Below are positions 18,367 to 34,890 of a stretch of DNA of 64,000 bases, piece after piece (the first letter of the stretch is position 1; every line of letters begins with the position of its first letter). The stretch covers positions 8,292,001-8,356,000 of the forward strand of contig NZ_CP109078.1 in the NCBI RefSeq assembly GCF_035917455.1, written 5' to 3'. Both the position numbers and the translations under genes were made by a program. The notes beneath the pieces are model-generated. The model was not told the DNA's origin. It saw only the letters and a list, made by a program, of their open reading frames with translations, and ran no database searches. The stretch comes from Micromonospora sp. NBC_01796 (GTDB lineage: Bacteria; Actinomycetota; Actinomycetes; Mycobacteriales; Micromonosporaceae).

Positions 18367-18744
18367 TCAGCGCACCTCGCGGCCGTTCGGGTAGTCGAGG
18401 TCCAACCGCCGTACGACGTAGTCCCCCAGCGAGGTCGCGCGTGGGATGTCCGGATCATCGGTCGGACCGGCGGGCGGGTAGCTCGTCACCCGGAGTTGTT
18501 CGACGAAGGCGGACAGCGGCGCGCCTGCCCGCAGACCCGTGGTGAGCGCGATGGACAAGGCGTCAGCCATGCCCCCGAGGGTGGAGCCCTGCTTGTCCAC
18601 CGACAGGTGGACGTCGCTCAACCGGCCGTCGGCGAGCGCGGCCGTGACCAGGTGCCCCTCGGTGCCGTCCACGACAAAGCCGACGGTCGCTCCGGACCGT
18701 CGGCGCGGAACCGGCACCCTGGCGTCGACCTGCACATCTGTCAT
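18367..18744 (-). CDS. Stand-alone TSCPD domain protein (class II ribonucleotide reductase C-terminal-like)
   Basis: This 125-residue protein aligns in pattern with the C-terminal domain of vitamin B12-dependent ribonucleotide reductase NrdJ. GATVGFVVDGTEGHLVTAAL and VDKQGSTLGGMADALSIALT are followed by GLRAGAPLSAFVEQL, the AGPTDDPDIPRATSLGDYV stretch and VRRLDLDYPN. In NrdJ this region follows the catalytic barrel and ends in redox cysteines. Here no barrel is present and the protein has no cysteine. It starts at ATG 18744, four nt after GAGGGGG (18749-18755). It therefore cannot reduce ribonucleotides alone and is probably a regulator or accessory of the full enzyme encoded elsewhere. Confidence 0.8.
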   Translation of the reverse strand: MTDVQVDARVPVPRRRSGATVGFVVDGTEGHLVTAALADGRLSDVHLSVDKQGSTLGGMADALSIALTTGLRAGAPLSAFVEQLRVTSYPPAGPTDDPDIPRATSLGDYVVRRLDLDYPNGREVR

Positions 18745-18932
18745 GGAATCCCCCTCGACGGCCCGCGCGGGCTGGCACCCGCCCCGATCCGCCAAACCGT
18801 AGGTGGCCCGGGGGCCGACCACCAGCACGACACGGCACCCATTCGTACACGTGAACGAATGGGTGCCGTGCTTCGGGTCCACACCGGCGGTGCCGGGTAC
18901 GGGCGGTCACGCCCGCACCCGGCACCGGTCGG

Positions 18933-21900
18933 TCAGAGCTCCCTGACCCTGACGTTGCGGAAGTCGATCAGGTCGTTGGTGCCGTGGTTCTGCAACCCGA
19001 CGTACCCGCTGAGGAACTGCCGCAGATCGGTCGACGGGTCGCCCTGGCGGGACGACTGCTTGCCGGGTGTGTTGTCGAACTCGCTGATCACCACACCGTT
19101 GCGGATCATCGTGTAGTGCTGGCCGACCACGCGGATCTCGTAGTCGTTCCACTGGTTCTTCGGGGTCACCCCGGCCTTGTCCAGGGTGTTCGGCGAGAAG
19201 TTGTAGACCGAGCCGGTCTTCTGCGGCTCACCGGTCTCGCCGTCGTAGATCTGGATCTCGTGACCGCAGTAGATCGCTACCCAGGCCTGCGAACTGCGGG
19301 CCGACCCGACCGTGCCGCAGCTACCCGGCGGGCGCTGGTCCAGCGGGGTCCTCGGGTCCGGGAACCGGACGAAGACTCCGGTGTTGGCGCGGACGTTCTC
19401 CGGGGAGACGTCCCGGAACTGAACCTTGATCGAGTAGTCCGCGAACTGCTGGTCGGCGTACCACAGCATGCCGAGGCCACCGGAGCTGCGGATGGAGCCG
19501 TCGGGACGCAGCGAGAACGACCCGCTGGGCGCCTGACGCCAGCCGGCGAGCGACTTCGCCGAACCGTCGAAGATCGGCTCGTACCCGTTGGTGACACCGA
19601 TCGGGGACTGTGCCCCGGCCCGGCGTAGCTTCGTCACCTCACGGTTGTCGATGACGTGCGCCGCGCTCAGTTCGGCGAGGACGGCATCGAGGTGGCTGAC
19701 GAACGCACCCTTGTTCGGCCAGGTGGTCTCGTCGTCGATCAGATCGTTGATCGTGCAGCCACCGCCGGCCTGACGGTTGGCCACACCGGTGTCCGTGTCG
19801 AGCATCCAGACCGTCGGCCGGGCGTCGGCCGCGGCACAACCGGCGTTGACGTCGATCTTCCCGGTGACAACCTCGCCGTCGGCGTACGTCACCTTGACCG
19901 TCGCCTGGAAGGTGCCGTACCGCTTGTAGGTGTGCGTCGGGTGGGCCTGGGTCGACACCTTGCTGCCGTCGCCGAAGTCCCACTCCCAGGCCACGCCGCC
20001 GACCTTCGCGGCCGAGAACGCGACCGTACGGGGCTGGCTCGGTGTGACCGACTGCGCCTCGGCCAGGCTCGGGTTCGGGGTGGCCTGACCACCCTGGTAG
20101 GTGATCCGGATCAGCTTCTGGTTCTGGTGCAGGCTGAAGAAACCACCGGCGTAGTCGAGCAGGTACAGCGCGCCGTCGGGGCCGAACTTCGCGTCCATCC
20201 AGGACTGGAGCTGGGTGGTGCCGTTACCGCCCTGGATGATGCTGCGCAGGTCCTCGGCGAAGGCCGGGGCGCCCGCCTGTTCGACCTTGGTCGGGTCGAC
20301 GGTGACGGCGATCCGGTTGTTGGAGTTGGACTGGTCACCGATGAACCACTTGTTGTCCCAGTACGCCGGCCACGCGACGCCACTGTTGACGTCGACCTTC
20401 GAACGCTGGTAGGTCGGGCCGTCCATGATGGCCTGACCGCCACCGCTCAGGTACGGCTGGGTGTAGGTCGTCTGGCTGGTGACGTACGTCGGCAGGCCGC
20501 TGCCGTCGGTGCGCTTCGGGAAGACCGGGCCACCGCCCTGGGGCGAGTACCAGATCATGTTGTCCCGGGCCGGCGGGATGTTGACCAGACCGGTGTTGCG
20601 CGGCGACTCGTTCTTGAGGTTGTCGCAGTCGTACCAGCCGGTCAGGACCGTGGCGTCGGTGGTGCTGCGGTCCCGGTACGGCTGCCGGTTACCCATGCAG
20701 TACGGCCAGCCCTGGTTGCCCGCCGAGGTGATGATCGTGGCGGTCTCGTACTTCGCCGGACCCAGCTCCGGGCTCGGCGCACCCGCGTCCGGGCCGACCC
20801 ACGCGGCGGTGAGCCAGTCGTTCACCGGGTCCCAGGCGATCCGGGCGATGTTGCGTACGCCCATCACGTAGATCTCCGGACGGGTCTTGCCGCCGCCCTG
20901 CTCCTCGCCGGTGAAGAGGTTGCCCTCGGGGATCGAGTAGGTCCCGTCCGCCTCCGGGTGAATACGGATGATCTTGCCGTTGAGGTCGTTCGTGTTACCC
21001 GAGGTACGGCGGGCGTCCTGGAACGAGGTGCCCGCGTACTCCTGGGTCCAGTTGTTGCCGGAGTAACCGTCCGAACCGCCGGAGGAGTTGCTGTCACCGC
21101 TACCGATGTAGAGGTTGCCGGACTCGTCGAAGGTCATCCCGCCACCGGCGTGGCAGCAGCTGTGGATCTGGGTGTCCCAGTGCAGCAGGTCCTTGCGGGT
21201 GCCCTGGTCGATCGACTGCTGGGCGTGGTTGTACGTGAACCGGGAAACCGTACGCTGACCGATCCGCTTCTCCCGGTCGATCGACTCGTGCGGCATCCAG
21301 TAGACGTAGAACCAGCCGTTCTCCGCGAAGTTGGGGTCGAGCGTGATGCCGACCAGGCCCTCCTCGTTCTTGACCAGTTCGCTGCCGCTGCCCCGGTTGC
21401 CCATCACCTTGAGCGTGGTCAGCAGCTTGACCTGCTTGTTCTTCGGGTCCCACTGGTGGATGGTGCCGCAGCCCAGGCCCACGTTCGGGTTGGCCCAGTC
21501 GGTGACCGGCCCGGTCGCGCAGGCGGCCTTGCCGATGTAGAAGACCTTGCCGTCGGGGGCGATGGTCAGGCCGTGCGGCTCGCCGATCTGGTCGAGCTGA
21601 CCGGACTGGTTCGTCGCGGTCAGCCGCTCGATCTTGTAGTTCGAGGCGATGGTGGCCTGGCAGTCACCGCGTACCAGGCCGGTCGTCCACTGGAGGGCGC
21701 CGAGCAGGTGGCTGCGGAACTGCGCGTCGGTGGTGTAGCTGGCCTCGGTACGGCCCATGCCGGTGTAGAACGACCGGCCCCCGTCGTAGTCGCGGCACCA
21801 GGAGATCGGGTGGAACGCGCCGTTGCCGGCCAGCCCCGGGTTGTACGACTTCTCCTGCACCTGGGCGATCGTGTGGACCCGACCGACCGGGCTCGGGTTC

Positions 21901-23012
21901 CAGTTCATCCACTGGTCCGAGCGGGTCCAGTTGAGCGGCAGACCCTTGTTCGCCGGGTGCTGCCGGTCGACGACGTCCACCACCGCCTGCTGCACCGTGT
22001 TCTCCGGCGCCGGCCCGGCGTTCGGGCCGATCAGCCAGATCTCGGCGAGCTGGATCAGCGGCTCACCGCTGTTCGCGGTGATGTTCAGCCGGTAGTGCTG
22101 GTACGGCGTGGTGTTGGTGAACGTGTACTGCTTGGTCTGGAACCGCCCGGAGAACGTCTCCCCGCTGCGGGTGTCCAGGGTCGTCCAGGAGTTGCCGTCG
22201 GTCGACCCCTGGAGGGTCCAGTCCCTCGGGTCGCGTCCCTGGAAGTCGTTTGCCGACGTCAGGGCGTACTGGGCGACCGCCTTCGGTTCGGCGAGCTTCG
22301 CGGTGACCCACGCCGCCGGCGTACGGACCAGCCACTTGGTGCCGGTCAGCCCGTCGATCAGGTTCGCCTCGACCTCGCTCGGCGGGTTGCTGCCACTGGC
22401 GGTGACACTCTGGATCTTCTCCGCGTTCGGCAGGCTCGCCGCCGGGCGGGTGCCGATGAGGCCGGTGAACCACTCCGAGGTGGGCTGCGCGCGGGCGGCG
22501 TCGTGGATGCCGACGAAGCCGCCGCCACCCTTGACGTACGCCTGGAACGCCGCCTCCTGCGCGTCGTTCAAGGTCACCCCGTTGGCCGACAGGAACACCA
22601 CGCTGCGGTAGCGGTCCAGGTTCTCCGGGGTGAACACCGACGGGTCGTCGGAGTCGTGGACGAAGAAGCCGTTCTCGCTGCCCAGCTTGCGGATGGTGTT
22701 CACGGCCTTGACGACCGGGTCGTCCTGGGACGCGGCCGGCCCGTGGAACACCAGCACGTTGACCACCTGGCTACCCCAGGCGGGGGCGACAGCCGACCCG
22801 CCCACGCCCGGGTCGGGCGCCGCCGACACCGGTGTGGTCAGCAGGCCGAGCGTGAGCAGGGCACCCGACGTCAGGGCGACCGCGCGACGGAACGGTCCGG
22901 CGCCGGGACGCCGCGACCGCAGTACGCGGGCAGGTACGGGTGGCAGGGGGTCGGCGGGGTCGGAACGGAGTCGTCCGACCGATCGGGACAGCTGGAAATG
23001 GCGTTGGGCCAT
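18933..23012 (-). CDS. Exported ThuA / discoidin / sugar dehydrogenase / PKD / DUF1080 multidomain protein
   Basis: This 1359-residue secreted protein has these domains in order: a signal peptide (about 44-65), the ThuA first half (about 84-185; GGGGFVGIHDAARAQPTSEW), a discoidin-like insert (about 195-330; DWTLQGSTDGNSWTTL) and the ThuA second half (about 335-445). Then come a GSDH-type PQQ sugar dehydrogenase propeller (about 455-975; HSCCHAGGGMTFDESGNLYI), PKD (about 980-1060; WDFGDGSKVSTQAHPTHTY), a RPTVW/INDLI module (about 1063-1135) and DUF1080 (about 1145-1359), the 3-keto-disaccharide hydrolase fold. It starts at ATG 23012 after GGAGGAGGA. It is third in a row with the copper oxidase and cupredoxin genes. 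The probable role is oxidation and cleavage of glycosides outside the cell. Confidence 0.9.
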   Translation of the reverse strand: MAQRHFQLSRSVGRLRSDPADPLPPVPARVLRSRRPGAGPFRRAVALTSGALLTLGLLTTPVSAAPDPGVGGSAVAPAWGSQVVNVLVFHGPAASQDDPVVKAVNTIRKLGSENGFFVHDSDDPSVFTPENLDRYRSVVFLSANGVTLNDAQEAAFQAYVKGGGGFVGIHDAARAQPTSEWFTGLIGTRPAASLPNAEKIQSVTASGSNPPSEVEANLIDGLTGTKWLVRTPAAWVTAKLAEPKAVAQYALTSANDFQGRDPRDWTLQGSTDGNSWTTLDTRSGETFSGRFQTKQYTFTNTTPYQHYRLNITANSGEPLIQLAEIWLIGPNAGPAPENTVQQAVVDVVDRQHPANKGLPLNWTRSDQWMNWNPSPVGRVHTIAQVQEKSYNPGLAGNGAFHPISWCRDYDGGRSFYTGMGRTEASYTTDAQFRSHLLGALQWTTGLVRGDCQATIASNYKIERLTATNQSGQLDQIGEPHGLTIAPDGKVFYIGKAACATGPVTDWANPNVGLGCGTIHQWDPKNKQVKLLTTLKVMGNRGSGSELVKNEEGLVGITLDPNFAENGWFYVYWMPHESIDREKRIGQRTVSRFTYNHAQQSIDQGTRKDLLHWDTQIHSCCHAGGGMTFDESGNLYIGSGDSNSSGGSDGYSGNNWTQEYAGTSFQDARRTSGNTNDLNGKIIRIHPEADGTYSIPEGNLFTGEEQGGGKTRPEIYVMGVRNIARIAWDPVNDWLTAAWVGPDAGAPSPELGPAKYETATIITSAGNQGWPYCMGNRQPYRDRSTTDATVLTGWYDCDNLKNESPRNTGLVNIPPARDNMIWYSPQGGGPVFPKRTDGSGLPTYVTSQTTYTQPYLSGGGQAIMDGPTYQRSKVDVNSGVAWPAYWDNKWFIGDQSNSNNRIAVTVDPTKVEQAGAPAFAEDLRSIIQGGNGTTQLQSWMDAKFGPDGALYLLDYAGGFFSLHQNQKLIRITYQGGQATPNPSLAEAQSVTPSQPRTVAFSAAKVGGVAWEWDFGDGSKVSTQAHPTHTYKRYGTFQATVKVTYADGEVVTGKIDVNAGCAAADARPTVWMLDTDTGVANRQAGGGCTINDLIDDETTWPNKGAFVSHLDAVLAELSAAHVIDNREVTKLRRAGAQSPIGVTNGYEPIFDGSAKSLAGWRQAPSGSFSLRPDGSIRSSGGLGMLWYADQQFADYSIKVQFRDVSPENVRANTGVFVRFPDPRTPLDQRPPGSCGTVGSARSSQAWVAIYCGHEIQIYDGETGEPQKTGSVYNFSPNTLDKAGVTPKNQWNDYEIRVVGQHYTMIRNGVVISEFDNTPGKQSSRQGDPSTDLRQFLSGYVGLQNHGTNDLIDFRNVRVREL

Positions 23013-23096
23013 TTCTCCTCCTCCAGAGGTACGGAAAGTCCTTCGGGTGGTGGGAAAGCCGGTCGTGGTTGGGAACCGGTGCGACGGAGCCGCCGG

Positions 23097-24404
23097 TCAG
23101 CGATGGTTGGCGTGGGCGGCCGGCGCGGCGGCACCCTGGGCCGGTGCCGGGGCACCCTGCGCCGCAGCGGCACCTTGCGCCGGCGCTACGGGGGCACCCT
23201 GCGCCGGTGCGGTCGGCATCGAATTACCGTGCGGCGGCATCGCCCCGTTCTCGTCGAGGACGTGCAACGTCGTCGCCATGCCCAGGTCGGAGTGGAACTG
23301 CATGTGGCAGTGCAGCATCCAGTGACCCGGCCCGACCGAGTCGCCGGCGACGAACTGCACCCCGAAGGTGTCACCGGGCCCGAGGGTCTTGTTGTCGATG
23401 ACCGGTATCGAGTCGACGAGGGCCTTGTTCTCCCCCGCCACCATGCCGGTCCGGGTGTCCGCCCAGGAGTGCCCGTGCACATGGAACGTGTGCATGTCGT
23501 TGCCGAGTCCGATCACGATGAACTCGACCCGCTCCCCGAGCTTGGCGACCAGGCAGGTCGGACCGGGCACCGGGTTCACCGGATCGCAGGTGTCCGCGTC
23601 CGCGCTGCGCCGCAGGTTGATGGTCTGCCGGTCGCCGAAGGCCGTCACATAGGTCCGGTCCGGCCTCGGGTCACCCTGCCGGCGTACCACGAGACCGCCG
23701 AACAGCCCGGAGCTGAGGCCCTGGGTGCCGTGCGGTCCGCCGACCACGTGGTCGTGGTACCACCAGTAGCCGGCCGTGCCCTGCGAGGTGGCGCTGCGGG
23801 GCTTGGCGAACCAGATGTACGTACGCGAGCCGCCCGGCGGCACGAAGGAGTTGCTGTGCGCCGTACCGTCGGACATCTGGGTGTACTTGACCCCGTGCAC
23901 GTGCAACGAGACACCGATCGGGTGCGCCGGGTCGGTACGCAGTGCCTCCAGGGTCGCCGCCGGCACCTGGTTGTGCACGGTGATCGCCAGGCACTCACCC
24001 TCGATCATCTCCATCGTCGGCCCCGGGTAGGAGGCCGTCTCCGGTGTGAGGCCGTAACCGAGCCGGACCTGGTTGGTCACCGGATCCTTCGGCAGTTCCA
24101 CCGCGTACATCTGGATCCGGCGGTCCGGGGCGATGCAGCCCTCGGGCCGCTCGGCCGACCGGACTGCGGCGACGCCGGCACCGGCGGCCAGCTCGGCCGG
24201 GCGCTCGGTGGTGCCACCGGCGAGGGCCAACCCACCGGCGCCGACGAGCGTCGCCACCAGGACCCCCACCACCATCACCGCACGGCCCGCGCTCGACCCG
24301 AGGAACCGGACCGGCGACGCCGGACGGCCCTGCGGAACGTCGGCCGGTGGCGGCTGCACAAACTCACCTGTGTCGTTCAATTCCCTGTCCAAGGTTCTAT
24401 CCAA
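23097..24404 (-). CDS. Two-domain multicopper oxidase (small-laccase-like), membrane-anchored
   Basis: This 435-residue protein has a hydrophobic segment at about 40-62 (VMVVGVLVATLVGAGGLALA), then two cupredoxin domains. All four copper motifs are visible: SLHVHG, YWWYHDHVVGGPHGTQG, DMHTFHVHGHSW and GHWMLHCHMQFHSDLGMAT, which holds the type 1 Cys, His and Met. Two-domain oxidases form trimers and reduce O2 to water while oxidising phenols or metals. The C-terminus is a run of about 50 residues rich in AQGAP/PAQGAAA repeats, probably a flexible linker. The start is uncertain: TTG 24404 or GTG 24359. It lies between the cupredoxin-DUF1080 and ThuA-dehydrogenase genes (gaps 61 and 84 nt), and so may be the terminal oxidase of that set. 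Confidence 0.92.
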   Translation of the reverse strand: MDRTLDRELNDTGEFVQPPPADVPQGRPASPVRFLGSSAGRAVMVVGVLVATLVGAGGLALAGGTTERPAELAAGAGVAAVRSAERPEGCIAPDRRIQMYAVELPKDPVTNQVRLGYGLTPETASYPGPTMEMIEGECLAITVHNQVPAATLEALRTDPAHPIGVSLHVHGVKYTQMSDGTAHSNSFVPPGGSRTYIWFAKPRSATSQGTAGYWWYHDHVVGGPHGTQGLSSGLFGGLVVRRQGDPRPDRTYVTAFGDRQTINLRRSADADTCDPVNPVPGPTCLVAKLGERVEFIVIGLGNDMHTFHVHGHSWADTRTGMVAGENKALVDSIPVIDNKTLGPGDTFGVQFVAGDSVGPGHWMLHCHMQFHSDLGMATTLHVLDENGAMPPHGNSMPTAPAQGAPVAPAQGAAAAQGAPAPAQGAAAPAAHANHR

Positions 24405-24465
24405 TCGCTGCGCCTACCACCGTCGACGGCGGCGGAAGGGGAGAGGACGGCGTGCGGTACCGGCG

Positions 24466-27400
24466 TCACGGGGTCAGCGGGGCGATCCGGATGTTGCGGA
24501 AGCTGGCGATGTCGGCGGCGCCGTGGTTCTGCAGGCCGACGTAACCGGTCGCGTTCTGGCGCCCGGCACCGCCGGGATCGTCCGACCGCGGCGGGTCGAA
24601 AACAGCTCCGGGTACGTTGACGTACTCGTTGATCAGCACACCGTTGCGGAACACGGAGTAGTGCTGGCCGACAACACGGATCTCGTAGTCGTTCCAGGTG
24701 CCCTTCGGGGTGACCTGTGCGCCGTCGAGGTCGACCCGGTCGAAGCCGTACACCGATCCGCTCTTGTACGCGTCGCCGTCGGTCCGGTCGTTGATCTGGA
24801 GTTCGTGGCCGTACTTGATGGCCACCCACTCCGGCCGGGACTCCGTCGGGTGCTGGTGCACCTGCGGGAAGCGGACGAAGACCCCGCTGTTGGCGCGTCC
24901 GTCACCGGGGGCGTCGTCGCGCCACTGGAGCTTCAGCGAGAAGTCGCCGTAGGAGCGGATGGGGAACCAGAGCATGCCCAGACCGTCGACGGAACGGCTG
25001 GTGATCGACCCGTCGGCGTTGCGGCCGAAGCCACCCGCGCCGACCTGCTCCCACTGCTTGAAGGAGGCGACCGAGCGGTCGAGCAGCGGCTGGTAGCCCG
25101 CCTTGTCCTCGGCCTTGCCGACACCGGAGTCGCCGGCCGTGCGGATCAGGATGTTGTGTTCCTTGAGCAGGATGAGACCCCGGTGGTACAGGCGCTCGGC
25201 GACCGCGCGTACGTGGTCGACGAACTCGGCGTGGGTCGCCCAGGCCCGCTCGTCCTCGATCAGGTCGTTGATCGAGCAGCGGCCCTCGACGACCCGGTTG
25301 GTCACGCCGCTGTTCAGGGTGCCGGTCCAGACCGTCGGCCGGGTGTCGGTCACCCGGCAGACCGGCGCGGGCGGTGCGCTCTCCACGACCGTGAAGGTGG
25401 TCGACGCGGTGCCGGAGGTGTTACCCGCCCGGTCGGTGGCCCGGTAGCTGACCGTGTGCGCACCGACGGTGTTGACCGTGAGCGGCCCGGAGTAGACCGT
25501 GTAGCCCCGCCCGTCGAGGGCGTACTCGAGGCGGTGGACACCGGACTCGGTGTCGGCGGCGGTGAGCGTGACGGTGGCACTGCCGACGTACGCCCAGCTT
25601 CCGTTCTGCTGACCGGTGATCGCGGCGGTCACGGTGGGCGCGGTGGTGTCCGGGTTCGGCGGCGTCACCACGGTGAACGCGACCGACTTCGGGGTGGAGA
25701 TGTTGCCGGCGACGTCGGTGGCCCGGTACGCGACCGTGTGCTGGCCGGGCTGGTTGACCGTCACCGGGGCGGTGTACTCCGCGTACGCCTGCCCGTCGAG
25801 GGAGAACTCGACCAGGTCGACACCCGACTCGGCGTCGGTGGCGGTCACGGTCACCGTGGCGGCACCGACGTAGGCACCGGCGCTGTTCTGCGTACCGGTG
25901 ACGGCGGCCGTCGCGTCCGGAGCGGTGGTGTCGGGGTTCGGCGCCCCGACGACCTGGAAGGCGGCGGACCCGACCGGTGAGGTGTTGCCCGCCACGTCGG
26001 TCGCCCGGTACGTGACCGTGTGCTGGCCCGGGGTGTTGACCGTCACCGGGGCGGTGTACTCGGCGTACGCCTGCCCGTCGACGGCGTACTCGATCCGCTC
26101 GACGCCCGACTGGGTGTCGGTGGCGGAGACGGTCACGGTCGCGGCACCAATGTAGGCGCCGTTGCCGTCGCGGTCACCGGTGACACCGGCGCTCACCGTC
26201 GGCGGGGTGGTGTCCGGATCCGACGTGCCGGCCACGGTGAAGGCGACCGACTGCGGAGCCGAGGTGTTGCCGGCCCGGTCGGTGGCCCGGTAGTTGACCG
26301 TGTGCTCACCCGGCTGGTGCACCATGACCGGCGCGCCGTACGCGGCGTACGCCGCACCGTCGAGGGAATACTCGACCAGTTCGACACCGGACTCGGCGTC
26401 GGTGGCCGAGATCGTCACCGTCGCCATGCCGACGTACGCGCCGTCCTCGTTCCGGTCACCGGTCACCGCGGCGGTCGCCGTCGGTGCGGTGGTGTCCGGG
26501 TCCGGGGTACCGACCACGGTGAACGCGGTCGACTGGACCGGAGAGGTGTTGCCCGCCACGTCGGTCGCCCGGTACGTGACCGTGTGGGCGCCGACCGCGC
26601 TCACCGCGACCGGCGCGGTGTACGCGGCGTACGCGGCACCGTCGAGGGAGTACTCGACCAGTTCGACGCCGGACTCGGTGTCGGTGGCGGACAGGGTCAC
26701 CGTCGCGGTGCCGACGTACGCACCGTCCTCGTTCCGGTCACCGGTCACCGCGGCGGTCACCGTCGGTGCGGTGGTGTCCGGGTCCGGCGGGGCCACCACC
26801 TCGAACGCGGTCGACTGGACCGGTGAGGTGTTGCCCGCCACGTCGGTGGCGCGGTAGCTGACCGTGTGCTCGCCGGGGGCGTTGACCGTCACCGGACCCG
26901 AGTACGTGCCGTACGGGCCACCGTCGAGCGCGTACTCCACCCGGCCGACGCCCGAGCCGCTGTCGGTGGCCGAGAGGGTCACCGTGGCGGCGCCGACGTA
27001 CGCACCGTCCTCGTTCCGGTCACCGGTCACCGCGGCGGTCACCGTGGGCGGGGTCGTGTCCTCGCTCCCACCGGTGACGACGAGCAGCCCGGTCATGGCG
27101 CCGTGTCCGGGGATGGCGCAGAAGTACCGGTAGGTGCCGGGGGTGAGCGTCACGTCGACGGTCCACCGGCCCTGGTTGCTGTCGAACGGGTCGGCGAGGA
27201 TGTTCACGTTGACGTCGCTGTTGTACGCCGGGTTGCCCGTGTCGAACGTGAGGGTGTGCTGCATACCGGTCGTGTTGCCGGTCGCGGCGCTGTTCTCGAA
27301 GACGAGGGTGGTCGCACCCGCGACGGCGGTGGTGGGTACGGAGGCGTACGCCTGGAAGTTGTTGTTCGCCGTCCAGGTGAGCACCTGGGCCTGTAGTTGC

Positions 27401-27603
27401 GGGGCCGACGCGAGGGTGCCGGGCGTGCCCGAGGCGGTGTCGACCGGCTGGGCGTTCACCGGAACCGAGGCCAGTGTGGAGCTGACGAGGAGGACGGCCG
27501 CTGCCGCAAGCACCGTCATCGGGCGGCGGAGCCGACCCGTGGTGCGCCGGGTGAGCCGGCGCAGGCGACTTGGCGAACCGCGTCGCACAGGGATAGTTGG
27601 CAT
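24466..27603 (-). CDS. Exported cupredoxin / OmpL47-repeat / DUF1080 protein
   Basis: This 1045-residue protein has a long signal peptide (basic RRLTRRTTGRLRRP, then hydrophobic to VPVNAQ, about residue 51). A plastocyanin-like domain (about 70-180) has type 1 copper ligands visible in MQHTLTF and YFCAIPGHGAMTG. Six tandem OmpL47-type beta repeats of 94 residues follow (about 182-744; each with ATDxxSGVxxVEY, xHTVxYRATDxAGN). Then come the RPTVW/INDLI module (about 753-825) and DUF1080 (about 840-1045; GLGMLWFPIRSYGDFSLKLQ). ATG 27603 is chosen because GAAAGG lies upstream and the signal peptide begins there. It is first in the leftward row. The cupredoxin is well placed to ferry electrons from the sugar dehydrogenase to the copper oxidase. 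Confidence 0.9.
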   Translation of the reverse strand: MPTIPVRRGSPSRLRRLTRRTTGRLRRPMTVLAAAAVLLVSSTLASVPVNAQPVDTASGTPGTLASAPQLQAQVLTWTANNNFQAYASVPTTAVAGATTLVFENSAATGNTTGMQHTLTFDTGNPAYNSDVNVNILADPFDSNQGRWTVDVTLTPGTYRYFCAIPGHGAMTGLLVVTGGSEDTTPPTVTAAVTGDRNEDGAYVGAATVTLSATDSGSGVGRVEYALDGGPYGTYSGPVTVNAPGEHTVSYRATDVAGNTSPVQSTAFEVVAPPDPDTTAPTVTAAVTGDRNEDGAYVGTATVTLSATDTESGVELVEYSLDGAAYAAYTAPVAVSAVGAHTVTYRATDVAGNTSPVQSTAFTVVGTPDPDTTAPTATAAVTGDRNEDGAYVGMATVTISATDAESGVELVEYSLDGAAYAAYGAPVMVHQPGEHTVNYRATDRAGNTSAPQSVAFTVAGTSDPDTTPPTVSAGVTGDRDGNGAYIGAATVTVSATDTQSGVERIEYAVDGQAYAEYTAPVTVNTPGQHTVTYRATDVAGNTSPVGSAAFQVVGAPNPDTTAPDATAAVTGTQNSAGAYVGAATVTVTATDAESGVDLVEFSLDGQAYAEYTAPVTVNQPGQHTVAYRATDVAGNISTPKSVAFTVVTPPNPDTTAPTVTAAITGQQNGSWAYVGSATVTLTAADTESGVHRLEYALDGRGYTVYSGPLTVNTVGAHTVSYRATDRAGNTSGTASTTFTVVESAPPAPVCRVTDTRPTVWTGTLNSGVTNRVVEGRCSINDLIEDERAWATHAEFVDHVRAVAERLYHRGLILLKEHNILIRTAGDSGVGKAEDKAGYQPLLDRSVASFKQWEQVGAGGFGRNADGSITSRSVDGLGMLWFPIRSYGDFSLKLQWRDDAPGDGRANSGVFVRFPQVHQHPTESRPEWVAIKYGHELQINDRTDGDAYKSGSVYGFDRVDLDGAQVTPKGTWNDYEIRVVGQHYSVFRNGVLINEYVNVPGAVFDPPRSDDPGGAGRQNATGYVGLQNHGAADIASFRNIRIAPLTP
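25372..27060 (-). repeat. Six in-frame tandem repeats (about 282 bp each) coding OmpL47-type domains
   Basis: Each unit begins DTTxPxxxAxxTG and ends in xxFxVV followed by a short Pro/Ala linker. Units are about 94 codons and alike at the DNA level, with the first three closest (GDRNEDGAYVG). Recombination between units could change the repeat number. Confidence 0.9.
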
Positions 27604-28180: not shown

Positions 28181-29437
28181 TCAGAAGTAGGTGTGCAGGA
28201 CGTCCACGATGGTGTGTCCATCGTCGACAACCGGGATGGACCGCCACTTGTCGAACGCCGTACACGGGTGGGAGATCCCGAAGCAGACCAGGTCGCCGGG
28301 GGCGACCTCCACACCGGGCGCCACGTCGAGGTAGGTGTGGTGGTCGTTGAGGCGGGTCACACCCAAGCCGGTGGCGGGGCCGACCGCGCCGGATCGACGC
28401 CGGATCCGCAGCGGCACCGGCAACCCCTCGTCGTACGGGGCGTCGCGCTTGCCCATCCCCACGATCGCCAGCCCCGGCTCCGGGGTGGAGGTCACCTGTG
28501 CCCAGAGCTCCAACGCCGGATCCAGGGCGGCGTCGCCCGGCAGGCGGCGGAACGGGGTGCGGTCGGCGTAGAAGCCGTGGTCGTGGGTGACCGAGGCGCC
28601 GCTGCGCAGGACCACCCGGAGTTGGTGACCGGGCAGCCAGCCGCCGCCGAGCCGATCCGCCACGACGTCGAAGTACGCGCTGCCGCCGGCACTGACGATC
28701 ACCTCGTCGGCGAGCAGTCCCCGCCCGGCCAACTCGGTGACCGCCTCCCTGGTCCGGTCCAGGTACGCCGCCACCGAGGTCACGTCCTGCAGGCCACCCT
28801 CGTACGCGGTGACGCCGTCGAGACGTACCCGGGGTGCGGCGGCAGCCGCCGCGGCGACCTCGACGACCTGCTCGACCGTGCGGCACCCGGTACGCCCACC
28901 GGGATGCCCGAGCTCGACCAGGACCCGCAGGGGTGTGCGACCGGGGTGGTCCGCGAGTGCATCGCCGATCGCCTCGACACCGGCGACCGCGTCCACGAAG
29001 ATCAGCGCCTCGAAACCGAGGTCGAGTTCACCCGCCAGCCAGCGCAGCGGCACCGGGTCCAGCAGCTGGTTGGCCAGGAGGACCCGGGGCAGCCCGAAGG
29101 CGCGGCCGGCGAGCAGTTGGTTGGCGGTGGCCACGGTGATCGCCCAGGCGCCGGCGGCCAGCTGCGCCGCGAACAGGGACGGCGCCATGGTGGTCTTGCC
29201 GTGCGGGGCGAACAGGAAGCCGTGCCGGGCACAGAAGGCGGCCATGGTCGCGATGTTGTGGTCGATCGCGTCCCGGCGGGCGACCAGCACCGGCCAGGTG
29301 ACCGCGCCGTCGAAGAGGTGGCGGCCGGCCGCGACGAACTCGGTGTCGGGCACCGGTGGGCCGGGTTGCCAGAACCCCTTCGCCCGCCAGTCGAGGGCTC
29401 GCTCGTCGAACGGGTCGTGCCGCACGGGCCCTCCCAC
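28181..29437 (-). CDS. PLP-dependent D-amino-acid deaminase / D-threonine aldolase-like (alanine racemase N-terminal fold)
   Basis: This 418-residue protein of the DSD1/D-threonine aldolase fold has its PLP lysine in FLFAPHGKTTMAPSLFAAQL (about residue 77). A glycine/His segment LVELGHPGGRTGCR and a C-terminal metal site follow; the latter reads THDHGFYADR and LVCFGISHPCTAFDKWR, with His and Cys ligands for zinc. Members eliminate water or cleave D-serine, D-threonine or related D-amino acids. It lacks a signal peptide. GTG 29437 is used; GTG 29425, closer to GGGAGGG, is possible. It is divergent from the regulator at 29577, and the amidohydrolase and RidA genes lie beyond it. RidA removes the enamine/imine intermediates that such enzymes release. 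Confidence 0.85.
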   Translation of the reverse strand: MGGPVRHDPFDERALDWRAKGFWQPGPPVPDTEFVAAGRHLFDGAVTWPVLVARRDAIDHNIATMAAFCARHGFLFAPHGKTTMAPSLFAAQLAAGAWAITVATANQLLAGRAFGLPRVLLANQLLDPVPLRWLAGELDLGFEALIFVDAVAGVEAIGDALADHPGRTPLRVLVELGHPGGRTGCRTVEQVVEVAAAAAAAPRVRLDGVTAYEGGLQDVTSVAAYLDRTREAVTELAGRGLLADEVIVSAGGSAYFDVVADRLGGGWLPGHQLRVVLRSGASVTHDHGFYADRTPFRRLPGDAALDPALELWAQVTSTPEPGLAIVGMGKRDAPYDEGLPVPLRIRRRSGAVGPATGLGVTRLNDHHTYLDVAPGVEVAPGDLVCFGISHPCTAFDKWRSIPVVDDGHTIVDVLHTYF

Positions 29438-29576
29438 AGGTTCGGATGTGGCTCGCTGATGGACGCACAGCCTGCCCGATCAGGCCCGCACCGTCAACGG
29501 GTTGACGGGAGCGGGGCAGAGACAGCAGGCTATCGACGCCCTGCCTCAACGAGCTACTTCCGAACCTGGAGGGCCG

Positions 29577-30875
29577 ATGGTGATCGGTCTCGTCATCCAC
29601 GCCAGTCACCGTGCCGTGTTCGAGGACGCCGCGCGGACGCTGGCCGGGGTGAGCCTCGAGTGGGTCGTCTACGAACACGAGGACGAGGTCCGGGTACGGG
29701 TCGACCGGCTGCTCGCCCGGCAGCGGGTCGACGGGCTGTTGCTCGGCCCGGTCCCGTACGCGAAGTGTCGACACCTCCTTCCCGCGGACCTGCCGGTCGC
29801 CATCCTGCGCTCGGCCGGCCTCGACCTGTCGCTGGCCCTGTTCAAGGCGGTGGCCCGAGGGTGGCGACCCACACCGGTCAGCATCGACACCTTCGACGCG
29901 CAGACGGTGGACGAGGTCACGAGGGCGTTGGACCTGGACCCGGCCAGGGTGACCTGCCTGCCGTACGACCCGGAACAGAGCGTCGCGGGCATCGTCGCGT
30001 TCCACCGCGAGGCCCTGGCCCGCACCGGAGCCGACTACGTGATCAGCCTGCGTACGGCGGTCGCGGCGGAACTGGGCGGGGAGACCCACGTGCTCGGCGG
30101 CCTGCCCGGACCGGCGACACTGCGCGCCCAACTGCACGAGCTGGCCCTGCGGGTGCAGTCCAAACAGGCCAGTGCGCTGCGGTTCGCCGCCGGGGTGTTC
30201 CTGGTCGCGAAGGCGGGCCCGCAGCTCGACCTGGACCGGGCCCGGGTGGGCCTGATGAACCTGCTGCTGAACACCCCGGAGTTCGCCGACGCGTGGATAG
30301 AGAACCGGGGTCGGCGGGGAGTGGTGGTCTTCGCCCACCAGGCCCTGTTCGAGAAGGCGACGAGTAGCTGGGTGTCGCTTCCGGCGCTGAGCCAGGCACT
30401 CGAGGCGCTCGGGATCCGGGTCGCCGCCGGCTTCGGTGTCGGTGCGTCCGCGCGCAGTTGTGTGCACCTGGCGGAGCGGGCCGCCAACCGGGCCGAGCAG
30501 GAGGAGTCCCCGAGCGCGTTCCTGATCGAGGACGGTGGCGTCATCATCGGCCCGATGAGCCCGGCCGGTGCGGCGTTGACCTTCACCTACCGGGAGCACG
30601 GCGCGGAGCTGGAACGGCTGGCCGGCGAGGTCGGGCTCAGCGCCGCGACCCTGTCCCGGCTGGCCGCGATCGAGCGGGGCCAGATGGGCCGGGCCATCTC
30701 TCCCAGCGACCTCGCCCAGCAGCTCGGCATCACCGACCCGAGCGGCCGACGGTTGATCCGCAAGCTCGGCGACTCCGGGCTGGTCGAGGTGGAGGGCAGC
30801 ACCCAGGTACACCGCAAGGGCCGCCCGGCCCGGCTGTACCGGCTGCGCATCGGCGCCGCGATCGAGCGCCCGTGA
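29577..30875 (+). CDS. Transcriptional regulator with C-terminal winged helix and cyclase-like sensor region
   Basis: This is a 432-residue protein. The first 120 residues form an alpha/beta sensor (IGLVIHASHRAVFEDAART). Residues about 200-320 read like a GGDEF/adenylyl-cyclase-type ferredoxin fold (VGLMNLLLNTPEFADAWIEN, then GIRVAAGFGVGASARSCVHL) without catalytic GGDEF residues. The C-terminus (about 335-425) is a winged helix-turn-helix (SAATLSRLAAIE, SDLAQQLGITDPSGRRLIRK, LGDSGLVEVEGSTQV). This order, with the sensor first and the DNA-binding domain last, is unusual. ATG 29577 lies after GGAGGG. It is divergent from the deaminase and overlaps the amidohydrolase (GTGA), and so probably controls both. 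Confidence 0.7.
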   Translation: MVIGLVIHASHRAVFEDAARTLAGVSLEWVVYEHEDEVRVRVDRLLARQRVDGLLLGPVPYAKCRHLLPADLPVAILRSAGLDLSLALFKAVARGWRPTPVSIDTFDAQTVDEVTRALDLDPARVTCLPYDPEQSVAGIVAFHREALARTGADYVISLRTAVAAELGGETHVLGGLPGPATLRAQLHELALRVQSKQASALRFAAGVFLVAKAGPQLDLDRARVGLMNLLLNTPEFADAWIENRGRRGVVVFAHQALFEKATSSWVSLPALSQALEALGIRVAAGFGVGASARSCVHLAERAANRAEQEESPSAFLIEDGGVIIGPMSPAGAALTFTYREHGAELERLAGEVGLSAATLSRLAAIERGQMGRAISPSDLAQQLGITDPSGRRLIRKLGDSGLVEVEGSTQVHRKGRPARLYRLRIGAAIERP

Positions 30876-32143
30876 GCGGGCCGGTGCGCTGGGATCTGCT
30901 GCTCACCGGCGGGGACCTGCTCGATCCGGGCGGTGGCCGCAGCGGCCGGTACGACATCGCCGTACGGGACGGGCGGGTCGCCGAGGTGGGCGCGTCACTG
31001 CCGAGCGGGTACGCCGCCGAGGTGGTCGACGTGACCGGCCGGCTCGTCACGCCGGGGCTGGTCGACCTGCACACCCACGTGTACGGGGGCGCCACGTACT
31101 GGGGGATCGACCCCGACCCGGTTGCCTGGCACTCCGGGGTGACCACCTGGGTCGACGCCGGCTCGGCCGGTGCCTACTCGTTCCCGGCTCTCACGACCGC
31201 CATCGCCGGCTACACGGTGCGGGTGCCCGCGCTGCTGAACATCAGCGCCGTGGGACTGATCGCACCGGTCGGCGAGTCACGCGAGCTGGCGAACTGCGAC
31301 GTCGACCTGGCCGTGGCGACCGTCCGGGCGTACCGGGGGACGATCGTCGGGATCAAGGTACGGATGGACCGGCACAACGTCGGCGCCCACGGCACCGAAC
31401 CGCTGCGCCGGGCGGTCGAGGCGGCTCGGGAGTGCGGCCTGCCGGTGATGGTCCACATCGGAGCGGCACCGCCCTCGATAGCGCAGATGTTGCCGCTGCT
31501 GCGCCCGGGTGACCTCATCACGCACTGCGCCAGCGGCATCGCGGCCGGGCCGACCGGGTTCGATCCGGCGGCGAAGGAGGCGTACGACGCCGGGGTCCTG
31601 TTCGACGTCGGGCACGGTTCCGGCGGGTTCGCGTTCGACGTCCTGGAGGCGCAACTGGCCGCCGGTATGCCACCGCACACCGTCTCCACCGACCTGCACA
31701 GCCGGTCGCTGCACGGTCCGGCGTTCGACCTGCCCACCACCATGGCCAAGATGCTCGCCGCCGGCATGCCCCTGGAGCAGGTGGTGGAGGCGGCCACGGT
31801 CGGACCGGCCCGCGCGCTGGGCCTGGCCGGTGGCGTCGGCACGCTCGCGCCGGGCGCACCGGCGGACATCGCTGTGTTCACCGTCGAGCACGGCCGGTTC
31901 GAACTCGTCGACGTGCACGGGCAGCGCCGCACGTCGCCACTGCGCCTGGTCAACGAGACGACGTACCGGTCCGGTCGGCCGCTGCCACCGCGCCTGCCTG
32001 CGCCGGTACCGCCGTGGGTTCCGCTCACCGGCGCCCAGCGGGACGCCCTGCGCCACCGCGAACGTGCGGTACGCCAACTGCTGACCTCGCCCCTGGTGGG
32101 TCCGGACGGGCTCGCCGAACAGTTCCCCCGACACGGAGGTTGA
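30872..32143 (+). CDS. Amidohydrolase/deacetylase-family metallohydrolase
   Basis: This 423-residue protein has the amidohydrolase barrel. The first metal motif is VDLHTHVYGGATYWGIDPDP (HxH, about 65-70), followed by a lysine in GIKVRMDRHNVGAHG, His in PVMVHIGAAP, His in DLITHCASG and the catalytic Asp in TVSTDLHSRSLHG. This matches the amidohydrolase/deacetylase subgroup related to D-aminoacylases and N-acetylglucosamine-like deacetylases. It has no signal peptide, so the enzyme is cytoplasmic. Its GTG overlaps the regulator stop (GTGA), and RidA follows three nt later. Its likely job is to remove an acyl group from a D-amino acid or amino sugar before the deaminase acts; the substrate is inferred from neighbours only. 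Confidence 0.85.
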   Translation: MSGPVRWDLLLTGGDLLDPGGGRSGRYDIAVRDGRVAEVGASLPSGYAAEVVDVTGRLVTPGLVDLHTHVYGGATYWGIDPDPVAWHSGVTTWVDAGSAGAYSFPALTTAIAGYTVRVPALLNISAVGLIAPVGESRELANCDVDLAVATVRAYRGTIVGIKVRMDRHNVGAHGTEPLRRAVEAARECGLPVMVHIGAAPPSIAQMLPLLRPGDLITHCASGIAAGPTGFDPAAKEAYDAGVLFDVGHGSGGFAFDVLEAQLAAGMPPHTVSTDLHSRSLHGPAFDLPTTMAKMLAAGMPLEQVVEAATVGPARALGLAGGVGTLAPGAPADIAVFTVEHGRFELVDVHGQRRTSPLRLVNETTYRSGRPLPPRLPAPVPPWVPLTGAQRDALRHRERAVRQLLTSPLVGPDGLAEQFPRHGG

Positions 32144-32146
32144 TCC

Positions 32147-32527
32147 ATGCCGAAGAAGGTCGTCGTGGCCGACCGGGCGGCACCGCCCGGTGGTCCGTAC
32201 TCGCACGCGGTCGTGGCGGGTGGCTTCGCGTACCTCGCCGGGGCGTGCCCGGTGCGCCCGGACGGGACCTGGGTCACCGGGGACTTCGTCGAGCAGGCGC
32301 GGGCCGCGTTCACGAACCTGGCCCGGGTGGCCGAGGCGGCCGGCGGTGACCTGACCGATGCCGTACGGGTCGGGGTCTACCTGCGCGACTTCGCCGACTT
32401 CCCGGCGATGAACGAGGTCTACGTGGAGTTCTTCGGCACCGAGAAGCTGCCCGCCCGTACCACCCTGCCGGTGGCGCTGGAGGGGTTCGACATCGAGATC
32501 GACGCGGTGCTGTACCTGGGCGAGTGA
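32147..32527 (+). CDS. RidA-family enamine/imine deaminase
   Basis: This 126-residue protein of the YjgF/RidA fold has GGPYSHAVVAGGFAYLAGAC near the N-terminus, VYLRDFADFPAMNEVYVEFF in the middle, and the active-site arginine in KLPARTTLPVALEG. RidA proteins speed hydrolysis of reactive 2-aminoacrylate-type intermediates formed by PLP dehydratases. That matches the neighbouring PLP deaminase-like gene across the divergent promoter. It begins three nt after the amidohydrolase stop, with GGAGG in the preceding gene's end, and is clearly co-transcribed. A 180-nt gap with an operator-like palindrome follows before the sugar transporter. Confidence 0.92.
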   Translation: MPKKVVVADRAAPPGGPYSHAVVAGGFAYLAGACPVRPDGTWVTGDFVEQARAAFTNLARVAEAAGGDLTDAVRVGVYLRDFADFPAMNEVYVEFFGTEKLPARTTLPVALEGFDIEIDAVLYLGE

Positions 32528-32668
32528 TCCCCGGTCCCCCGCAGCCGCCGCCCCCGCAGCCGCCGGGGCGGCTCGACCGGCATGCCCGGAGAACCGCTCC
32601 CACCTGCGAAAACGTGGCTTGACGGAACACCTCGGGGAGCCCAACCTGGGGGACATCGATACCGACCT

Positions 32669-32691
32669 AATTACGAACCTGGCTCGTTATT
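32669..32691 (+). promoter_or_regulatory. 23-bp imperfect palindrome before the sugar ABC operon
   Basis: AATTACGAACC-T-GGCTCGTTATT has 11-bp arms with two mismatches and lies 16-38 nt before the GTG of the binding protein gene, in an AT-richer patch. Its left half contains CGAACCTGG, which also occurs before the regulator at 29577 and, on the other strand, before the deaminase. This is a likely repressor site. Confidence 0.5.
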
Positions 32692-32707
32692 CGAGGGGAG
32701 AGAGTCT

Positions 32708-33994
32708 GTGCGGAAACCCCTGGCACTCACCGCGCTGCTCGCGGTGGCCCTGAGCGCCGCCGCCTGCGCGCCGTCGACCGGCACGCCCACGGACAGCGCC
32801 GACGCCAAGACCGGCACGCTGCGGGTCTGGCTGTTCGACGAGGCGAACCGCGCCGCGAAGGAGGCGGTGGTCAAGGAGGCGGTCACCGAGTTCACCGCCG
32901 CCCATCCCGGAGTGACGGTCGACGTCAGCTACCTGGCGACCGACACCCGGGCGGAGAAGTACAAGGGAGCGCTCAACGATCCCGCGAGCGCCCCGGACGT
33001 GACCGAGGTCGGCAACACCGACTTGGCCGGATTCGTCGCCTCCAACGGGATGGCCGACGTCAGCGCCGACCTGAAGACCTGGCCCGAGGCCACCGATCTG
33101 CCGGCCGACCTGGTGAGCACGGTGACGGTCGGCGACAAGGCGTACGGCGTACCGTGGTGGATCGGCGTACGGGCCCTGTACTACCGCACCGACGTCTTCA
33201 CCGAACTCGGCCTGACCCCACCCACCTCGTACGCCGAACTCGTCACCACGGCGAAGAAGATCCGGGCCGAGCGCAAGGACATGCTCGGGATCGCGGTCGG
33301 CGGGCTCTACGTCTTCGGCGCCCTGCCGTTCGTCTGGGACGCCGGTGGTGACATCGCCACCGGTTCGGCCGGCGGGTACACCGCCACCATCGACTCGGCC
33401 GCGTCGAAGGCCGGCATCACCGCGTACACCAGCCTGTTCGCCGACGATATCTGCCCGGCGCAGCAGTGCGTCGACCTGACCGGCGGCGGGACCGTCGAGG
33501 CGTTCGCCGCCGGACGGGCCGGTATGGGCATCCTGGGCAACTTCAACCGCTCCGCCGTCGATGCCGGCGCGGTCAAGGGGAGGTACGCGGTCGTACCGCT
33601 GCCCGGCGCCAAGCCCGGCTCGATCGCGCCCGCCTTCGCCGGTGGGAGCAGCCTCGGCGTCTTCCGGTCCACCGGGCACCGGAGCCTGGCGGTGGAGTTC
33701 ATGCAACTGCTCGCCGGCCGCAAGTACACGCTGAAGCTCTACGACGCGATGGGCTTCGTGCCCGCGATGAAGTCCGCCCGGACCGAGGTCATCACGAAGG
33801 ACCCGCAGCTCAAGCCGTTCATCGACACGATGGAGGCGGGGACCAGGTTCGTGCCGGTGGACAAGGCGTGGACCACCATCGACGCCGAGAAGATCCTGCC
33901 GACCCTGCTCCAGAAGGTGATCACCAAACAGGCAACCGTGGACGCGGCGGCGGCCGAGGCGAACACCCGGATCACCACGGCGTTCGGCAGGTAG
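32708..33994 (+). CDS. Sugar ABC transporter substrate-binding lipoprotein
   Basis: This 428-residue type I extracellular binding protein has a signal peptide with lipobox ALSAAAC (about residue 20). A MalE-like fold follows (LRVWLFDEANRAAKEAVVKE, DVTEVGNTDLAGFVASNGMA, YGVPWWIGVRALYYRTDVF and a late FAGGSSLGVFRST). The WW-I-G-V-R-ALYYR stretch is typical of proteins that bind oligosaccharides or amino sugars. GTG 32708 lies five nt after GAGGGGAGAGAG. Two permeases and a hexosaminidase follow in an overlapping chain, so the ligand is probably an N-acetylhexosamine-containing saccharide. No ATPase gene is present; a shared MsiK-type ATPase elsewhere is expected. Confidence 0.93.
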   Translation: MRKPLALTALLAVALSAAACAPSTGTPTDSADAKTGTLRVWLFDEANRAAKEAVVKEAVTEFTAAHPGVTVDVSYLATDTRAEKYKGALNDPASAPDVTEVGNTDLAGFVASNGMADVSADLKTWPEATDLPADLVSTVTVGDKAYGVPWWIGVRALYYRTDVFTELGLTPPTSYAELVTTAKKIRAERKDMLGIAVGGLYVFGALPFVWDAGGDIATGSAGGYTATIDSAASKAGITAYTSLFADDICPAQQCVDLTGGGTVEAFAAGRAGMGILGNFNRSAVDAGAVKGRYAVVPLPGAKPGSIAPAFAGGSSLGVFRSTGHRSLAVEFMQLLAGRKYTLKLYDAMGFVPAMKSARTEVITKDPQLKPFIDTMEAGTRFVPVDKAWTTIDAEKILPTLLQKVITKQATVDAAAAEANTRITTAFGR

Positions 33995-34890
33995 TGACGG
34001 TGTCCGTGACGATCCGCCGGCAGCGGTTGACCCCACTGTGGCTGCTGCTGCCGGCGCTCGCCGTACTGGTGCCGATGTTCGCGTACCCGCTCTACCAACT
34101 GGGCCTGCTCTCCCTGTTCGAGTACGGACAACCACAGGTGAGCGGGGGCGAACCGGCCCGGTTCGTCGGCGCCGGCAACTTCCGGGCGCTGTTCGACGAC
34201 CCGACGTTCTGGACCGTGCTCGGCCAGACCGTGGTCTTCGCGACCGGCTGTGTGGTGGTGACGCTCGCCGTCGGCGCGGCGCTGGCCGTACTGCTGACCC
34301 GGATCGGCCGGGTCGCGCGGGCGGCGCTGTCGTTCGCCGCGCTGACCGCCTGGGCCGCACCGGCGATGACCGGCTCGGTGGTCTGGTCGTTCCTGTTCGA
34401 CAGCAACCTCGGGCTGGTCAACGAGGTGCTCGGGCTCGACGGTTACAACTGGTTCTACGACCGGAGCGTGGCGTTCGCGCTGGTCGGTGCCGTGGTGGTC
34501 TGGCACTCGTTCCCGTTCGTCATGATCACCCTGTACGCCGGCATCCAGGCGGTCCCCGCCTCGGTGCTGGAGGCCGCCGCGCTGGACGGCGCGGGCGCGT
34601 TCACCGCGTTCCGCCGGGTCACCGCACCGATCCTCCGGCCACTGATCATCATCGTGGTGATCCAGTCGATCATCTGGGACTTCAAGGTGTTCACCCAGAT
34701 CTACGTGATGACCGGTGGCGGGGGCATCGCCGGGCAGAACCTGGTGCTCAACGTGTACGCGTACCAGAAGGCCTTCGCCTCGTCCCAGTACGGACTCGGG
34801 TCGGCGATCGGCATCGTGATGACGGTGATCCTGCTCGTGGTGACCCTGTTCTACCTGCGGGCGCTGCGCCGTACCGGGGAGGTTCTGTGA
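33994..34890 (+). CDS. Sugar ABC transporter permease (MalF-like)
   Basis: This 298-residue membrane protein has six hydrophobic helices (first LWLLLPALAVLVPMFAYPLY). The EAA loop is SVLEAAALDGAGAFTAFRRV, followed by TAPILRP (the EAA---G---------I-LP motif), at about 190-215. This is the CUT1 family, which imports oligosaccharides. The GTG overlaps the last base of the binding-protein stop (TAGTG), although later GTGs at 34000 and 34006 are possible starts. It pairs with the MalG-like subunit whose GTG overlaps its stop. It acts in the cytoplasmic membrane and needs an ATPase supplied from elsewhere. Confidence 0.93.
   Translation: MTVSVTIRRQRLTPLWLLLPALAVLVPMFAYPLYQLGLLSLFEYGQPQVSGGEPARFVGAGNFRALFDDPTFWTVLGQTVVFATGCVVVTLAVGAALAVLLTRIGRVARAALSFAALTAWAAPAMTGSVVWSFLFDSNLGLVNEVLGLDGYNWFYDRSVAFALVGAVVVWHSFPFVMITLYAGIQAVPASVLEAAALDGAGAFTAFRRVTAPILRPLIIIVVIQSIIWDFKVFTQIYVMTGGGGIAGQNLVLNVYAYQKAFASSQYGLGSAIGIVMTVILLVVTLFYLRALRRTGEVL

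Follow-up and report, generated by a model that had tools for sequence, protein, structure and literature searches.

In the genome of Micromonospora sp. NBC_01796, a single contig of 8.56 Mb, we analyzed a stretch of 64,000 nucleotides (the whole stretch is called the window below) and found three adjacent genes, designated A, B, and C, that belong to a cassette conserved in several actinobacterial families. Gene A (24466..27603) encodes an exported protein with a plastocyanin-like (cupredoxin) domain, six OmpL47-type repeats, a module of approximately 80 amino acids, and a DUF1080 domain. Gene B (23097..24404), which has a TTG start and encodes an N-terminal hydrophobic stretch, is predicted to specify a two-domain small laccase of the SLAC family. 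Gene C (18933..23012) encodes an exported protein in which a ThuA domain, interrupted by an F5/8 type C domain (F5/8C), is followed by a GSDH-type propeller, a PKD domain, a second copy of the module, and a second DUF1080 domain. The three genes and all the features within them are on the minus strand, the intergenic gaps are 61 and 84 nucleotides, and no terminator-like site was found on this strand between the genes. The original prediction, which was made from the sequence of the window, had described three exported, co-directional genes with these gaps, and the gene coordinates agree with it. Domains were assigned with Pfam, NCBIfam, and PDB searches. The nearest named relatives belong to Plantactinospora, with a propeller identity of 91–92%.

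Conservation of the three-gene cassette

The cassette was examined from the side of the laccase and from the side of the dehydrogenase. In an even set of 247 genomes of the class, a strong homologue of B (E < 1e-50) was found in 39 genomes, including that of the host. Stretches of ≤ 20 kb were fetched around 40 such sites in 37 of the remaining 38 genomes, and the laccase gene occurred together with a C-type ThuA-GSDH gene in 36 of these 37 genomes, the exception being locus L033 at a contig end. No C gene was seen in L033 (cut by the contig end), L060, or L061, yet in all three loci a cupredoxin gene adjoins the laccase gene, which indicates that the carrier is tied to the oxidase. A substitute dehydrogenase beside these three laccases was considered and rejected, because the genes around them encoded ordinary core functions, a GH3 enzyme, and an ABC transporter for sugars. 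The laccase gene of L051 stands alone. On the dehydrogenase side, 80 named loci were found with the propeller alignment, including loci of Micromonospora, Streptomyces, Nonomuraea, Microbispora, Amycolatopsis, Prauserella, Promicromonospora, and Georgenia. The laccase was inside the fetched stretch in 76 of the 80 loci, and two of the four loci without it (L076 and L079) are near contig ends.

When the two sets were pooled to give 120 loci, with duplicates retained and with related genomes that are not independent of each other, all three genes were present in 108 loci. The original prediction had named the co-occurrence of the three gene types across genomes as a check, and this co-occurrence was clearly observed. 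Five gene orders were found among the 108 complete loci: B>C>A> in 55, B<C>A> in 23, A>B>C> (the order in the window) in 17, A<B>C> in 10, and C>A>B> in 3. A DUF1080 domain was present in every complete cassette, on C only (77 loci), on A only (14 loci), or on both (17 loci). The linkage of A, B, and C is far above chance, and the fact that the three genes have stayed together despite several rearrangements favors the view that they form a functional unit.

Copper proteins, propeller, and DUF1080 domains

Pfam detected two Cu-oxidase domains in B, and both domains aligned with solved small laccases over approximately 300 residues (E from 1e-58 to 1.7e-63 for 3t9w, 9ix9, 3cg8, and others). The four His-rich copper motifs (HxH, HxH, HxxHxH, and HCHxxxHxxxxM) are intact in B, their His and Cys columns are invariant in an alignment of 19 sequences, and the motif pattern was found in 99 of 105 laccase gene calls. 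The complete multicopper oxidase of the original prediction is upheld, and from its sequence B is more exactly a two-domain small laccase of the SLAC family. B resembles the SLAC-type enzymes (Streptomyces coelicolor SCO6712, 3cg8; 3t9w, 3tas, and 4n8u), but it is divergent (42–51% to other cassette laccases), has an insertion ahead of the first HxH motif, and has no obvious twin-arginine translocation (Tat) leader. The cassette laccase of locus L030 differs from S. coelicolor SLAC (3cg8) at few positions (E = 2e-202), and because of this near identity S. coelicolor SLAC is a member of the cassette laccase group. We infer the neighbors of the SCO6712 gene itself from its close relatives.

The cupredoxin domain of A (27064..27447) scored 18.3 bits in Pfam, under the cut-off of 21.2, but it carries the ligand pattern H...C..PGH..M (HTL...CAIPGHGAM in A) with the His, Cys, His, and Met ligands of type-1 copper, and its top match among solved structures was auracyanin A (E = 0.0016). 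These results support the plastocyanin-like electron carrier that had been predicted. The C..PGH..M part is kept in 106 of 108 relatives, and the commonest patterns have an upstream HT-type His. The loss of copper ligands had been named as a finding that would count against the original prediction; the ligands are kept in both the cupredoxin and the laccase.

The GSDH-type propeller of C (20088..21647; Pfam PF07995, E = 1e-19) was modeled from residue 456 to residue 975, with a mean predicted local distance difference test value (pLDDT) of 74 and a predicted template modeling score of 0.85. The best matches of the model were sugar dehydrogenases that use pyrroloquinoline quinone (PQQ), with Z = 31.2 for 3a9g (329 residues, 2.7 Å) and Z = 28.6 for the PQQ-bound 3das. 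The aldose dehydrogenases scored 28–31, and both sGDH and the hedgehog-interacting protein scored approximately 25. In an alignment to sGDH, the equivalents of H144, R228-N229, and G247-P248, which we take to be the catalytic residues, are kept in C (H166, R265-N266, and G296-P297, all invariant). A Cys-Cys pair directly ahead of the catalytic His is invariant in two alignments and recurs in several further ThuA-GSDH proteins that the host encodes.

A global profile alignment failed to position the C-terminal third of the propeller, and the Arg pair, R406 and R408 in sGDH numbering, was therefore placed by anchoring on the motif PDG. A canonical GSDH enzyme of the host reads RLRTVVYAPDG, whereas C reads SWMDAKFGPDG, with Met at the R408 position; cassette relatives in which the motif is recognizable likewise have Met there. 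This canonical enzyme (L153:1336-2853, near 7.78 Mb), which has the usual Arg pair, is fused to a CBM2 cellulose-binding domain. The basic residues that hold the PQQ carboxylates (R406, R408, and K377 of sGDH) were not found in C, the K377 position being judged by eye only, and for this reason we do not classify C as a PQQ enzyme.

The two DUF1080 domains (Pfam PF06439) had scores of 112.8 and 115 bits against a gathering score of 26.8; the match covered nearly the full model length in A (24484..25092; E = 5.4e-33) and the full length in C (18942..19586; E = 2.6e-32). The copy in C was modeled together with the helical part of its approximately 80-residue module (mean pLDDT 88). The top matches were DUF1080 proteins, including two structures of 3-keto-2-hydroxy-glucal hydratases (8v31 and 8tda) and a 3-keto-glycoside eliminase/hydratase (8rr2/9fbe), with Z = 18.8–19.3 over 198 residues for these entries. 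In the copies of A and C alike, several Glu, Gln, Asp, Lys, Asn, and His residues do not vary. DUF1080 is linked to 3-keto-disaccharide cleavage in PMC9007349, which covers the 3-ketotrehalose hydrolase BT2157, a DUF1080 protein, and a DUF1080 protein of a lactose pathway.

Some cassettes have additional genes. A TIM-barrel gene of the sugar-isomerase type (AP_endonuc_2) lies beside the cassette in 14 of the 120 loci, and several of its products have a Tat-like leader; in some Micromonospora, this gene is between A and B, starting approximately 25 nucleotides after A and overlapping B. In Agrobacterium, proteins of this type include a 3-keto-O-glycoside eliminase and a probable hydratase (PMC10628242). 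GFO/IDH/MocA and ROK regulator genes lie beside several cassettes of the Streptomyces type. The structure and these extra pathway genes strengthen the keto-glycoside reading of DUF1080. The prediction of a 3-keto-disaccharide hydrolase thus gains in its general sense, but the closest characterized structures are described as eliminase/hydratases and not as simple hydrolases.

The module of approximately 80 amino acids, which contains CTINDLI (C..SDTRPTV...CTINDLIDDE...FV.HV... in A), precedes DUF1080 in both A (25117..25359) and C (19596..19838; E = 1.2e-34), and no further copy was found in the host genome. The module is unannotated. A Pfam name was rejected because the matches were scattered and weak, no family being matched by more than 3 of the 11 members and the best E value being 0.0026. 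Secreted DUF1080 proteins and cupredoxin proteins also carry the module (relatives L201, L204, L206, L219, and L222), and one genome of another family has up to 16 copies, compared with two in the host.

The other domains are as follows. The ThuA domain of C (21684..22760; Pfam PF06283, E = 3.4e-56) scored 191.2 bits against a gathering score of 33.4 and extends over residues 85–443 for 209 model positions, because it is interrupted by the F5/8 type C (discoidin) domain (22041..22406; PF00754, E = 3.7e-11). The latter closely resembles a module of the GH92 mannosidase 7nsn. The PKD domain is at 19869..20084 (PF18911, E = 2.7e-11), and the six OmpL47-type (Ig-like) repeats of A are at 25288..27057 (NCBIfam NF047446, E = 1.1e-156, six stretches). 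Pfam matches confirmed the ThuA domain, the GSDH propeller, and the two DUF1080 domains named in the original prediction, which had not mentioned the F5/8C insertion, the OmpL47-type repeats, the small-laccase nature of B, or the module common to A and C.

Proposed reactions and alternative explanations

Our preferred interpretation, which we hold tentatively and at a little less than an even chance, is that the cassette encodes a conserved oxidative sugar system that is secreted or held at the envelope. The propeller of C would act outside the cell to oxidize a sugar or a glycoside, the electrons would pass to the cupredoxin of A and from there to the type-1 copper of laccase B, and the laccase would reduce O2 to water. 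Cleavage of the oxidized (keto) glycoside by DUF1080 would proceed by elimination and hydration, ThuA might assist in the reactions of the keto-sugar, and the F5/8C, PKD, and OmpL47 domains may localize the proteins to glycan or to the envelope. That this is one conserved system is supported by the completeness of 108 of the 120 loci in five orders and by the DUF1080 domain, which none of the complete loci lacks, whether it is on C, on A, or on both. The interpretation is also supported by the conserved copper motifs, by the resemblance of the propeller to PQQ sugar dehydrogenases with its catalytic residues kept, by the match of the DUF1080 model to eliminase/hydratases, by the TIM-barrel, GFO/IDH/MocA, and ROK genes near some cassettes, and by the module that A and C share to the exclusion of the rest of the host genome. 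The interpretation given in the original prediction is, as a whole, partly supported.

Several observations weigh against this scheme. Known PQQ/GSDH sugar dehydrogenases oxidize C1, not C3, so that C3 oxidation by the propeller of C is hypothetical. C has no equivalents of Arg406 and Arg408 of sGDH, the pair that holds PQQ (R.R is replaced by S.M). PqqE over the cut-off was not found in the host genome or in 35 of the 38 other laccase-bearing genomes. The fold of DUF1080 is lectin-like, with CBM66 (Z of approximately 17) and lectins (Z = 15–17) as the next matches, and judging from the model the domain could merely bind sugar. Finally, SLAC enzymes are laccases that oxidize phenols in vitro. 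The replaced Arg pair and the scarcity of PqqE, which was over the cut-off in 4 of the 247 class genomes and in 3 of the 38 genomes that bear the laccase besides the host, weaken the case for PQQ dependence of the propeller; imported PQQ, an unusual mode of binding, or another cofactor is possible. A host that makes its own PQQ was rejected on the lack of PqqE. Of the PQQ site that had been predicted, the catalytic His, Arg-Asn, and Gly-Pro thus stand, but the PQQ-holding pair does not.

The nearness of the DUF1080 fold to CBM66 and lectins, together with the fact that the propeller's relatives of known structure are aldose dehydrogenases, would suit plain aldose oxidation, in which the propeller makes C1 lactones, the electrons reach the laccase and O2 via the cupredoxin, and DUF1080 only binds sugar. 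We consider this unlikely: DUF1080 is in every complete cassette while moving between A and C, its polar residues are invariant across the copies, and the TIM-barrel and GFO/IDH/MocA genes near some cassettes suit keto-sugar chemistry. A phenol or lignin cycle, in which the laccase oxidizes phenolics, the sugar dehydrogenase reduces the resulting quinones or radicals, and the cupredoxin is an accessory, seems rather improbable. Fungal sugar dehydrogenases have been proposed to act with laccases in such a cycle. It would fit the action of SLAC enzymes on phenols (abstract of PMC3918160) and the near identity of the L030 laccase to 3cg8, but it leaves unexplained the constant DUF1080 and ThuA domains and the adjacency of cupredoxin and laccase genes in loci in which a C gene was not seen. 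The pairs of this kind in L060 and L061 could instead point to copper handling, in which the laccase and the cupredoxin oxidize or store copper at the envelope and the sugar domains just bind the wall. However, the propeller gene accompanies B or A in 113 of the 120 loci, and neither a copper transporter nor a chaperone or copper regulator was prominent among the recurrent neighbors examined, so that copper handling appears very improbable.

Relation to known systems and neighboring genes

Every domain family in the cassette is already known; what is new, as far as the open-access literature shows, is that they are combined with SLAC in a single conserved cassette. No description of such a cassette was found there, but most subscription journals were outside the search and a prior description is possible. 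The PQQ aldose and glucose dehydrogenases (sGDH 1c9u, ASD 2g8s, 3das, 3a9g, and 2ism) share the fold (Z = 25–31) and the catalytic residues of the propeller, whereas C is without the Arg pair, has Cys-Cys before the His, and is fused to ThuA, PKD, and DUF1080. The DUF1080 eliminase/hydratases (8rr2, 9fbe, 8tda, and 8v31; BT2157, 3osd) match in Pfam and at Z of approximately 19, but here the domain is fused to a propeller or cupredoxin chain, has an extra N-terminal module, and occurs in Gram-positive hosts. The conversion of a glycoside to its 3-keto form, followed by cleavage, is common to the LacABC and DUF1080 lactose pathway of Caulobacter and the GlycDH operon of Agrobacterium (PMC9007349; PMC10628242), which have other dehydrogenases and, in the excerpts available, no reported laccase or cupredoxin.

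The Streptomyces small laccases have many solved structures and are widely used in biocatalysis, but their natural role is unclear, and the open literature on them that was examined treats in vitro chemistry and does not discuss gene context. The grouping of such laccases with a dedicated copper carrier, a dehydrogenase for sugars, and enzymes that act on keto-glycosides suggests a physiological function for SLAC that can be tested directly in laboratory strains. It is conceivable, although we regard it as doubtful, that SLAC is the O2-reducing end of a secreted copper chain in which a ThuA-GSDH protein, perhaps free of PQQ or holding it in a novel way, produces keto-glycosides and passes electrons through the cupredoxin to SLAC while DUF1080 performs the cleavage. 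If true, this would extend the known keto-glycoside pathways by a variant that uses copper and O2, an O2-driven breakage of glycosides outside the cell, and the enzyme set may serve glycan breakdown or enzyme electrodes.

Further genes were observed near the cassettes. In some Streptomyces (L112, L117, L125, and L127), another ThuA-GSDH gene is located within a few kb of the cassette, as is a TIM-barrel gene, and in many Micromonospora cassettes A is followed by a conserved exported protein of approximately 338 amino acids without a Pfam match (L095:14232-15245 and 17 other loci). In the window, the gene adjoining C (18367-18882) encodes a small protein with a TSCPD domain that resembles the C-terminal part of B12-dependent ribonucleotide reductase. 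The upstream block (28181-37351) encodes a D-serine-dehydratase-like enzyme, an amidohydrolase, a RidA-type protein, an ABC transporter, and a GH20 hexosaminidase, and nothing indicates that it belongs to the cassette. The host genome is strongly expanded in ThuA (16 matches), DUF1080 (16 matches), and GSDH (21 matches), and several of these domains co-occur on the same large proteins.

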